Part shown: positions 5,454-22,665 of the stretch, one piece after another
Layout of the letters: each line of letters starts with the position of its first letter
How positions within the stretch are numbered: the first letter of the stretch is position 1
Assembly: GCF_000165425.1 (NCBI RefSeq)
Contig: NW_001799624.1
Span: 124,001 to 188,000 of the forward strand
Length of the DNA stretch: 64,000 nt
Source: Paramecium tetraurelia
Lineage: Eukaryota; Ciliophora; Oligohymenophorea; Peniculida; Parameciidae
Direction of reading: 5' to 3'
Made by a program: the position numbers and the translations under genes
Notes under the pieces: model-generated
Seen by the model: the letters and a program-made list of their open reading frames with translations, nothing else
Database searches by the model: none
What the model was told of the DNA's origin: nothing

Positions 5454-6800
5454 TCATTTATTTTCTAATTGAAAAGAATCATCATCCATTTGTGGTTCAT
5501 CTTCATCTAATTATTTATTTATTTAAGGTAGTTGAGTAAGTTTGTGTTAGGTTGAAGGAGCACCTACATTAATTGAACCTTACCTTTTTAAATTTAATCA
5601 GCTTAAATAAGATTGATTAGTATTTTGCCAATCTACAAACTACAAGCAGCACAATCAATAGAAACTTTCTTGTCTATGGATACAAGAGTCCCAAATTTAC
5701 TTTTGTTGTCCTAGATTACGAAATTACCATCAGTCAATTTAATGGTGGCATGGTGTCTAGAAACTGTGATGTCCTGTGCTTTGATGTCGCTTTGGAATCC
5801 TCTTCCCTTGAATATGGAATAGTTGAATTACGATTTTGATGTTGTCCATGAGGAGACTGTGGATTAAATAGACTTCATTGCATAAATTCTTGTCCTTATT
5901 GATGTTCTAATGAATAGTGAGGGGGAGAGTACTTCAACAAGGATGTATTGCAAATCAGGGCGTTCAAGTGTAAAAAGATCGTAGAATTCATCCTCATACT
6001 GAACTCGTATTGGGAGACCTTCTTTACAGATGGAACATTCGTGTTGTTTGTTCCTAATATGGAGAATTAAATAACCATTTAAGAGTCAAACCAAATTGAG
6101 TTACTTCTTTGTTGATATTTGAATCTACCCAATAACGCAAACACTCCAGATGAACAGCCTATCCGTTGCCAGCACAACGACAGATATTAGTAAGAAAGAG
6201 TTGGTCCTTGCTCTGCCTTCCTTCCATGAAACAAAACTTACATTGATATGTCACATTGGAGTCGCTGAGGAAGGAGCTCTAAAATTTGATTGCCTAATTA
6301 GCATACCTTGATGGAGCAGGGAGCTTTGAAGGTCTGCAAGTGTTTATTGCGTTCTTCAATGACCTTGTACTCACTTTAAATTAATAGAGTATAATAAATA
6401 CACTCTTCCCAGACGAATGATAGAATTAACTACAAGGGGATATTCTGGCCCATTGGATGATTTGATGTCCTTGACCACCATGAAGGGTGGCTGCATTACA
6501 GACAACAGGATTTCGTATTGATTTTCTAATAAAGTTGAATTATCGATAAGTCTTACTTGATTTGCTCACTTTAAGGAGCTGATTCTTATTGGGCAACATC
6601 TCAGCACTCTCGGTGTAGACTTGATCTGCAAAATGCATTTCATTATTACTCTCTTCATATATCGTGGTTGAACCTCCTTTAAATTTCCACACTGGGAACG
6701 TGTCAGTCTGCTCATGATCAATCAGACCCATCCCCTACTTCTGATCTTGCTTGATCTGCACTTCCAAGTTGCTTTTATAGGCTGGCATAATTATAATCAT
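5454..6800 (-). CDS. RING-variant (RINGv) + FHA domain protein, putative E3 ligase
   Basis: Predicted 388 aa from eight exons; the seven introns (31, 28, 28, 22, 26, 25 and 20 nt) sum to a frame-correct product. After an N-terminal region ending IIRLGRVEYKVIEE comes a C4HC3 RING-variant zinc finger: CKFC, then ICRCAGNGQAVHLECL, then HECSIC. RINGv domains recruit E2 and act as ubiquitin ligases. Next is an FHA phospho-threonine-binding domain with ITVSRHHATIKL and IQDNKSKFGTLVS. The tail is acidic (LDEDEPQMDDD). The joint architecture suggests phosphorylation-dependent ubiquitination. It shares a 24-bp intergenic with the divergent gene at 6825. The start could also be the Met four codons downstream. 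Confidence 0.8.
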
Positions 6801-20798: not shown

Positions 20799-21034
20799 TG
20801 ATATTTACACATTTCGATCTCAATCTCCAATTTAAATTTCCGAATTTTCCAATTTTCTTAGAATTCTACATTTTAAACTGTTGACCAGATAATATAAAAT
20901 GGCTTCATTATGTTAATAGTTTGTCCATAATGCGAGCTCTTCATTTAATAATAGAGGAGTGTCATAATCACAAAATAATACTCACATATTAAGAATAGTA
21001 TGTTTAAATAAATATATATTAAAAACAAAGGTTT

Positions 21035-21100
21035 TTATTGCTCAGATTCCTTAATTCCAACTAGTCTGGAGTTCTTAAGAAAATCGTCATACTAGTAGCT
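21035..21100 (-). promoter_or_regulatory. Candidate SECIS element (form 2) in the 3' UTR of the SelK-like gene
   Basis: Read on the minus strand: the 5' core ATGA (21087-21090), 13 nt to an unpaired AA, and the 3' core TGA (21042-21044). Between them GATTTTCTTAA pairs with TTAAGGAATC (10 pairs, one bulged T, one G-T pair). Above it the 5' bulge GAAC holds the AA, topped by a mini-stem TCCA/TGGA with a 7-nt loop. ATGA...AA...TGA with this spacing is the eukaryotic SECIS consensus, and the extra mini-stem makes it form 2. AATAAA follows directly. Helix I below the core is weak. Confidence 0.75.
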
Positions 21101-21146
21101 CTTGTGTGTGCTACTATAAAATCCTTTGTTTTATTAAAAGTGCAGC

Positions 21147-21464
21147 TCAGCCTCAGCTCTTGCAATCAGCTCCTCCTCCCAGCCCTCTGACAATCTTTGG
21201 CTTAGTTCCTTCCTTTCCACCATCATCATCGTCGTCATCCTTAGGTTTCCGCTTGAAAGGCATCTCTATAAATAATCAACTGCAATCATTACTATCATCA
21301 ATAATATAATTTAATTCCTCCTTCGTATACTTATTTGATTCCTTCTTCATACCAATTAAGGTGAAAAGGAAGAGAATCACCGCAAAATATAGAGTCCGAA
21401 TTATGCTCCAGGTAGAATCGATGGCTTTCACCATCGGACTTCTATTGGAAGCCAATTTAACCAT
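21147..21464 (-). CDS. SELENOK-like: Selenoprotein K-like membrane protein, TGA read as Sec
   Basis: Predicted 96 aa if the first TGA (21153-21155) is read as selenocysteine and the next TGA two codons later (21147-21149) is the stop; intron 21266-21292 (27 nt). Layout follows SelK/SelS: short N-terminus, one membrane helix (IIRTLYFAVILFLFTLIGM), charged linker with an Asp run, Gly-rich tail (VRGLGGGADCKS), then Sec-Gly as the last two residues. Human SelK is 94 aa with Sec near the C-terminus. These proteins sit in the ER membrane and act in ER-associated degradation and protein acylation. The strongest support is a SECIS-like hairpin about 60 nt downstream. If TGA is only stop, a 94-aa Cys form results. 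Confidence 0.75.
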
Positions 21465-21506
21465 TTAAAAATAATATTAATATAAAAGTAATATATACAT
21501 ATATAT

Positions 21507-22665
21507 TCAAGGTTAGGTTTTTAAAATATCTGACATTTGAAATTTACTAAATTTCTTTAAATTTTCCAGATTCGGATACTGCTTTTCAAATCCTTTGGCT
21601 ACACTCAATAATTTATTGGCTGATTCCATGGCATCAGCGTTGTCCATTTTCAAAGTTGAAACTATCAATGGTATTACTACCTCGGATGAAAGCGATTAAT
21701 CAATTTGCTCTACAATCTTAGAGTCTCACAATCAAAGCAGCACAGGCAATTTGAGCATAAGTGTGACTGTTGACAAATTCATAGTCATAAAGTGCCTAAA
21801 ATAAATCATACATATTTCACTAATTTAGCAAGATACAGTGTTATTTAATATAACTATTGATTCATATTCAATATGGAGAGTACAATTGTAATGACATCTA
21901 GTACAGTAATGCCAACTAAATTAAAGTCTAGAGTGCTTAAAATATTGGTTTCTTTGTCTTTAATTTCATCCTTGGTTAGTTTCTTGTGTGCAATCTTCTC
22001 GTGTACAATTTATAATTTCACTGGATAGATTTCCTCGAATTTACAAGCCATAAACATAGTAGTCACACCAACTAAATGTAAATCTTGAGGGATATGCTTT
22101 TAAGTTGTTTTAGATAGATAGGAGTCCATCAATTTGACAGCTAAAAAGAAGGTTTAATCTTTGCACTTATATGAAGTGAGTACTTCAACCATCCAATCAA
22201 TCATCTTTGCTCTCAGATTTGCACTTACTGTGTGATTGGATAAGCAATTCTTTGGTGTTAGAGTCTATTTGTTTAATCTATAAATAAATACGTTCAATTC
22301 CAAATAATAATCTAGAATGGGTTCTGAATAGTTGTTGATCAACTTACACAACTCATTTGATTGTGTTTCCACTTATTTGGGCTTTACAGGGGATTATTTT
22401 TATGGAGAGGAAGTGGTTTGGGTTTTTAGTTTAGTTTCTGGTTTACAGAACACGAGGGGATGAGAGGAAATAGAGGTGTAATTGTTTTTAAGTTCTAGAG
22501 CTTTCAAGTCATTTTCTTATGGATATTTTATTTAATATTACTTCTATTTCCACCAATCAAGGATAGTGAAACCAATTGGGTTAGTGATTTATTCTAATGC
22601 CTAGGGTTATTGGAGACCTCAGCTTAATTCTCTTTTTCAAAGATCTTCTTGGACATGTCTTTCAT
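21507..22665 (-). CDS. Mitotic-type (A/B-like) cyclin
   Basis: Predicted about 357 aa. The N-terminal 130 residues are unstructured and Ser/Lys-rich. The cyclin box then has LRAKMIDWMVEVLTSY (the MRAILVDWLVEV motif), TFFLAVKLMDSYLS, VGVTTMFMACKFEEIYP and KDKETNILSTLDFNL. The C-terminal cyclin fold has YLAKLALYDYEFVNSHTYAQ. Cyclins activate CDKs. Introns: one near 22529-22554, one of 25 nt near 21795, and an uncertain third near 21720, where the frame moves from ...AQIACAALIV to ...VEQIDQSLSSEVV; only a 34-nt intron that removes CAALIV, or a 1-nt indel, joins the two. Everything upstream of that point is secure. Confidence 0.85.

Follow-up and report, generated by a model that had tools for sequence, protein, structure and literature searches.

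The 64,000-nucleotide stretch of Paramecium tetraurelia DNA analysed here (NCBI RefSeq GCF_000165425.1, contig NW_001799624.1, positions 124,001–188,000; hereafter the window) carries on its minus strand a gene that we read as a real and intact selenoprotein gene with a penultimate selenocysteine (Sec), at a probability of about 0.8. The product would be a 96-residue, single-pass membrane selenoprotein. Its proposed Sec codon is a TGA placed one codon before the TGA that closes the frame, and a candidate SECIS element follows in the 3′ untranslated region.

Gene structure and predicted product

An ATG at 21464–21462 (minus strand) opens a 96-codon frame with one intron, ending ...GLGGGADCKS-TGA-GGC-TGA. 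The gene model consists of the following parts:

21293–21464, minus strand: exon 1, with the N-terminus and the sole predicted transmembrane segment (residues ~21–39)
21266–21292, minus strand: 27-nt intron, GTAATGATTGCAGTTGATTATTTATAG, of the GTA...TAG form
21147–21265, minus strand: exon 2, with a basic and acidic stretch, the Gly-rich tail, the proposed Sec, Gly and the stop
21153–21155, minus strand: TGA 1, proposed Sec codon (residue 95 of 96)
21150–21152, minus strand: GGC, Gly as the last residue (GGT in the broken duplicate)
21147–21149, minus strand: TGA 2, proposed stop

An in-frame TGA ahead of the sole stop codon had been noted in the first-pass annotation, and the gene model agrees: TGA-GGC-TGA lies at 21155–21147, with the proposed Sec as the penultimate residue. 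The earlier reading of the frame's end also stands, but it lacked the intron, which is needed to keep the frame open; with the intron left in, an intronic TGA ends the frame. The arrangement expected of a selenoprotein gene, an in-frame TGA followed by one or more sense codons and a stop, is present, with only one codon between the two TGAs. Once spliced, the frame translates as MVKLASNRSPMVKAIDSTWSIIRTLYFAVILFLFTLIGMKKESNKYTKEELNYIIDDKMPFKRKPKDDDDDDGGKEGTKPKIVRGLGGGADCKS, followed by TGA, GGC and TGA, for a total of 96 residues if Sec is read.

The splice that removes the intron is a prediction. Nine GT..AG options of 15–110 nt preserve the frame to TGA 1, and the chosen one has the GTA..TAG form and the size of a Paramecium intron, for which 27 nt matches the norm. 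Starting instead from another in-frame ATG, at 21500, would lengthen the protein by 12 residues; we place the start at 21464 because what precedes it resembles an AT-rich leader and, in the duplicate, does not stay in frame.

The hydrophobic segment at residues ~21–39, the only one in the protein, reaches a Kyte-Doolittle maximum of 2.2 over 19 residues. Across its 96 codons the window copy shows no frameshift and no extra TGA. Gln is absent from the protein, and the gene therefore has neither TAA nor TAG codons and is silent on their meaning; the genetic code is shown by other genes, the 1284-bp match to SepSecS holding 3 TAG and 14 TAA codons in frame.

A SECIS-like hairpin downstream of the double TGA

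Pattern and fold place a SECIS-like structure shortly after TGA 2, with these elements:

21042–21090, minus strand: SECIS-like hairpin core, from pattern and fold
21090–21087 (ATGA) and 21044–21042 (TGA), minus strand: quartet of the core
21085–21075 with 21054–21045, minus strand: helix II, 10 bp with one bulged U
21073–21072, minus strand: unpaired AA, starting 13 nt after the ATGA
21070–21066 with 21060–21056, minus strand: mini-stem of 5 bp
21094–21115, minus strand: side hairpin of seven pairs, 5′ of the core, from folding
21022–21132 (21132–21116 with 21038–21022), minus strand: long outer helix, a candidate helix I, enclosing the side hairpin and the core

The ATGA begins 62 nt from TGA 1 and 56 nt from TGA 2. 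The core has the form-2 SECIS pattern, namely the AUGA/UGA quartet, the apical AA on the 5′ side and the extra mini-stem, and both the position and the form-2 shape given in the first-pass annotation are confirmed by sequence and fold. When 156 nt comprising the hairpin and its surroundings were shuffled, 2 of 200 shuffles folded equally well. It is plausible, on this modelled structure, that the hairpin acts as a SECIS in the 3′ untranslated region. Both UGAs of the quartet are in frame with the gene (window 21044–21149, minus strand) and would be the next stops on readthrough of TGA 2.

The background frequency of such hairpins was estimated with a pattern scanner, in a third version that forces the closing pair and keeps the AA unpaired and is the only source of the counts used here. 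Two earlier versions had missed the window hairpin, one through a filter and the other through an unenforced pair; since the scanner was loosened until the hairpin was seen, its threshold is post hoc. All six published SECIS elements of Tetrahymena are scored by it, those of GPx2 and SPS2 in folds that differ from the expected helix. Among its 132 candidates in the window, this hairpin ranks third by energy (−6.7 kcal/mol), and the count of candidates at least as stable (three, itself included) is close to what is expected from 60 Markov backgrounds of the window (mean 2.9). Elsewhere in the genome, 40 kb of sequence held three candidates at that level of stability, and the 231,881 bases of retrieved loci held 25, a figure that counts real elements too. 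Judged only by its shape and energy, the hairpin is no better than chance.

Selenocysteine machinery in the genome

A search for the Sec machinery, suggested as a check on the first-pass annotation, covered the whole genome (69 Mb, 231 contigs) and found tRNA-Sec, SepSecS, a selenophosphate synthetase and eEFSec, with a weak match for PSTK; SBP2 was not among the loci read. One of 24 tRNA-Sec matches scored above the cut-off of 47, at 64.3 bits, and ARAGORN calls a tRNA-Sec with anticodon tca. SepSecS matched at one place only, with 619.5 bits against a cut-off of 224.85. The two eEFSec pieces, on contigs C34 and C55, reached 153 bits each, below the SelB cut-off of 242; the C34 piece contains the eukaryotic-SelB domain III, and its top PDB match is eEFSec, at 245 bits vs 98 for the best EF-Tu. 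These two loci (L024 and L025) are near-identical eEFSec genes, seemingly a retained duplicate pair. PSTK gave 24.2 bits against a cut-off of 382.

The SelD-type synthetase was matched as a pair of fragments scoring 104.9 and 89.1 bits, neither of which reaches the cut-off of 125 set for the whole protein. Because the SelD profile also matches in all 14 control genomes, its identity comes from reading the locus itself. That locus (L020, C162:409136-410537) encodes Cys, within GCGCK, at what we take to be the active-site place of selenophosphate synthetase; parts of it are read twice around a run of N.

For SBP2, seven loci were read of 36 L7Ae-domain matches and the gene was not identified among them, which does not prove its absence. 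The seven resemble eL8, eS12, NHP2, SNU13 and broken copies, names that we assign from motifs presumed to mark these proteins. On the same motifs, L069 (C227) and L070 (C66) resemble broken copies of the ribosomal eL8 and eS12 genes. Nine matches were obtained for the GPx family; none of the six that cover profile positions 1–50 holds a TGA, and these are therefore taken as non-Sec forms.

Thioredoxin reductases with the same ending

A thioredoxin-reductase profile gave 25 matches, and the C-terminal ends of eight loci were read. Four of the eight end in Gly-Cys-TGA: L042 (C24), L044 (C200) and L045 (C14) as GC-TGA-GGT-TGA, and L051 (C56) as GC-TGA-GCT-TGA, with Ala last. For L042, L044 and L045, an intron precedes the last exon, which was read solely by its frame. 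Because L044 and L045 resemble a duplicate pair, the four loci are not four independent cases. A penultimate Sec is the known ending of thioredoxin reductase in mammals and other eukaryotes, according to PMC4967479. With four such ends, it is most likely normal in this genome for a Sec TGA to stand just one codon ahead of the TGA stop.

A SECIS-like element follows TGA 1 at 118 nt in L042, at 132 nt in both L044 and L045 and at 63 nt in L051. The first three are supported by the scanner, which also fires by chance. The L051 element is not among the scanner's three best at that locus; against Rfam SECIS_1 it scores 32.4 bits (E 3.8e-5, cut-off 35).

The window gene shares with these four loci the penultimate TGA, the single intervening codon, the TGA stop and a SECIS-like element downstream, and its distance from TGA to element (62 nt) is near-identical to that of L051. 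The thioredoxin reductases differ in being large conserved enzymes of sure homology, with SECIS elements of form-1 shape that lie further downstream in three of the four. The window gene had been singled out as a compact natural test of stop versus Sec; the puzzle is a real one, but the special status of the gene was overstated, as the four loci of surer homology pose it too and are the better study material.

Recognition by covariance models

Rfam reports no SECIS at the window hairpin, even at E 10. Its sensitivity here is limited, because the element of the thioredoxin reductase L045 is also missed. Over the whole genome, Rfam SECIS_1 scored 132 of 1685 first-look candidates and returned no match; the local search scored the L051 element and the genome-wide one did not, so the latter misses real elements.

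We also built a covariance model from seven elements, three of Tetrahymena and four of Paramecium thioredoxin reductases, leaving the window gene out. Its alignment (A3) takes its seven sequences from the ten in A1, leaving out TtGPx2, TtSPS2 and TtTR2; A1 and A2 were discarded for shifted 3′ ends. The model gives its own Paramecium members 42–47 bits, by construction. The window hairpin received 4.8 bits and was outranked by two further sites within the 601 bases searched, and in a search of the whole window, where the best score anywhere was 23.3 bits, it was not listed. The model is mostly form-1 with short loops and is thus a poor test of a form-2 element; we still count the result against the claim. 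Ciliate GPx genes with Sec and no detectable SECIS, and the reverse, are reported in PMC7409322. Going by those cases, SECIS prediction in ciliates both misses and misplaces elements, which cuts both ways here.

A broken duplicate of the gene

One further copy of the gene was found in the genome (L019, contig C68). It adjoins a copy of the cyclin-type gene (PF00134) that neighbours the window gene, and its origin is therefore placed in a segmental or whole-genome duplication. The two cyclin-type genes (21507–22204, minus strand, in the window) are identical in 618 of 698 columns (88.5%). The duplicate is broken: its exon 1, 74% identical to that of the window gene, holds TGAs and length changes, and its exon 2 has lost one base. 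It retains TGA-GGT-TGA.

The SECIS region of the duplicate is identical at 39 of 51 bases (76%) without an indel, compared with 41 of 56 (73%) in the spacer, where there are three gaps. For the stretch after the SECIS the figures are 55 of 70 (79%), six gaps and eight inserted bases. As the SECIS region is no more conserved than its surroundings, the duplicate is weak evidence, and only the absence of indels stands out.

Base pairs were also counted helix by helix. In helix II, on the modelled fold, 7 of 10 pairs are kept (five unchanged, two with one-sided changes) and three break; setting the bulge one base earlier by hand raises this to 8 of 10. The mini-stem keeps 4 of 5 pairs. The side hairpin keeps 5 of 7, two of them changed from G-C to G-U, with two broken, and the outer helix, on alignment A5 (which replaces A4), keeps 10 of 16 and loses six. 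No pair differs on both sides between the window hairpin and its counterpart.

Differences between the two copies fall on codon positions 1, 2 and 3 of exon 2 at 4/37, 7/38 and 18/37 sites. The third-position excess indicates past selection at the protein level, on exon 2 at least, during some of the period that followed the duplication. Exon 1, by subtraction, shows 13/56, 11/55 and 17/57, with little third-position excess. Since the duplicate carries frameshifts and has diverged further than the cyclin gene next to it, the features it retains may reflect inertia.

Alternative explanations and proposed mechanism

The window gene could instead encode a short membrane protein of the ordinary kind, terminating at TGA 1, with TGA 2 as a back-up stop. 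The hairpin would then be an AT-rich fold formed by chance, or a structure at the transcript end. Tandem stops are reported to be in excess in ciliates including P. tetraurelia (PMC6879139). Here, of 193 stop-to-stop frames that span at least 150 codons, 6 are followed by a TGA at codon +2; hairpins of like shape and stability are common, and the covariance models do not recognise this one. With candidates this common, shape proves nothing and placement after the stop is what counts. We expect such a hairpin within 150 nt after one given stop about 0.003–0.008 times; multiplied by the frequency of a TGA at +2, this gives both coincidences at about 1–2.5 in 10,000 gene ends, a product that carries the post hoc threshold. 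Another TGA-GGA-TGA in the window, at 5996 (minus strand), has no scanner candidate in the following 300 nt. C-terminal selenoproteins typically combine a Gly-rich tail, a Cys and a penultimate Sec, as the window gene would, and the thioredoxin reductase L051 shares its type of ending at nearly the same distance from UGA to SECIS. On balance, we consider an ordinary protein unlikely.

Less probable still is that the window copy is itself decaying, its TGA-GGC-TGA and hairpin being remnants of a former selenoprotein. Paramecium often loses duplicated genes, and the duplicate on C68 is clearly broken. The window copy, however, runs through 96 codons without a frameshift or an extra TGA, has an intron of the expected form and keeps a complete hairpin.

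We retain the reading of an intact selenoprotein gene. The analysis shows the open frame, the two TGAs, the hairpin pattern, most of the Sec machinery and the parallel cases among the thioredoxin reductases; the splice, Sec insertion, the SECIS function and the cellular role are inferred from these. In this mechanism, the SECIS of the 3′ untranslated region would recruit eEFSec carrying Sec-tRNA-Sec, so that UGA 1 is read as Sec, Gly follows and UGA 2 is read as the stop. If UGA 2 were decoded as Sec too, translation would enter the SECIS, where the two quartet UGAs are the next stops in frame. By its size, topology and Gly-rich C-terminal Sec, the protein may work like SelK or SelS of the endoplasmic reticulum membrane.

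On a bolder reading, two identical codons, at 62 and 56 nt from the SECIS, could not be told apart by distance or sequence, and the rule would then be order or single use. A single-use rule would allow one Sec delivery per passage of the ribosome, after which release wins. We put forward only tentatively, as possible rather than probable, that two UGAs six nt apart are read differently in this way here and in the thioredoxin-reductase mRNAs, and that the gene is a ciliate-specific selenoprotein. If the selenoprotein reading is right, a small C-terminal selenoprotein is added to a ciliate genome in which standard annotation would truncate such genes. Together with the thioredoxin reductases, it would offer several naturally occurring UGA-Gly-UGA ends for measuring, within one transcript, how Sec is chosen over stop or stop over Sec.

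Comparison with known selenoproteins

The first-pass annotation likened the gene to SelK and SelS, and by sequence this kinship did not hold: the window protein has no Pfam match at E ≤10 (in a search where most weak hits are removed by HMMER's filters), and the SelK profile has no match at the window gene. Across the genome, that profile (PF10961) gives one match (L032), at 17.6 bits, below the cut-off of 23.3; it has a TGA inside and no SelK-like frame around it, and we regard it as noise. So is the NCBIfam sensor-kinase match of the window protein (10.8 bits vs a cut-off of 1550). Phmmer against PDB gave three matches, all with E >1. 'SelK-like' is accordingly a statement about architecture, the gene is not filed as a member of SelK or SelS, and it could be a C-terminal selenoprotein specific to ciliates. 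In the open-licence PMC literature we found no paper on a Paramecium SelK-type gene, which does not prove that there is none.

SelK has about 95 residues, one N-terminal membrane segment, a Gly-rich tail and a Sec near the end. The window protein resembles it in its 96 residues, its single N-terminal membrane segment and its proposed Sec near the C-terminus, but differs in lacking a match to the profile. SelK ranks among the most widespread eukaryotic selenoproteins (PMC2375036). SelS is a transmembrane protein of 189 residues with a penultimate Sec, as described in PMC3628699; the window protein shares the transmembrane segment and the proposed penultimate Sec, but is about half as long, at 96 residues, and has no Pfam match. 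PMC3737529 describes Sec insertion that depends on position under the control of the SECIS. The spacing of 62 nt in the window falls within the 51–111 nt of an older model quoted in PMC4967479.

Tetrahymena thermophila resembles this genome in using UGA as its sole stop and also for Sec, with a 3′ SECIS; six selenoproteins are reported there (PMC2612030), two GPx, three thioredoxin reductases and one SPS2, with no SelK among them. Where Tetrahymena is reported to have a Sec form of the synthetase (SPS2), the enzyme encoded here has Cys. In Condylostoma magnum and Parduczia, UGA means Sec, stop and Trp, and its use as both Sec and stop was shown on thioredoxin reductase (PMC4967479); these ciliates differ from the case of the window gene in the additional Trp meaning and in a Sec codon that comes shortly before the SECIS. 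The sharing of UGA between Sec and stop is thus already known in ciliates, from Tetrahymena (PMC2612030) and Condylostoma (PMC4967479), and the window gene, if read as proposed, adds one more case to a known device and not a new system.
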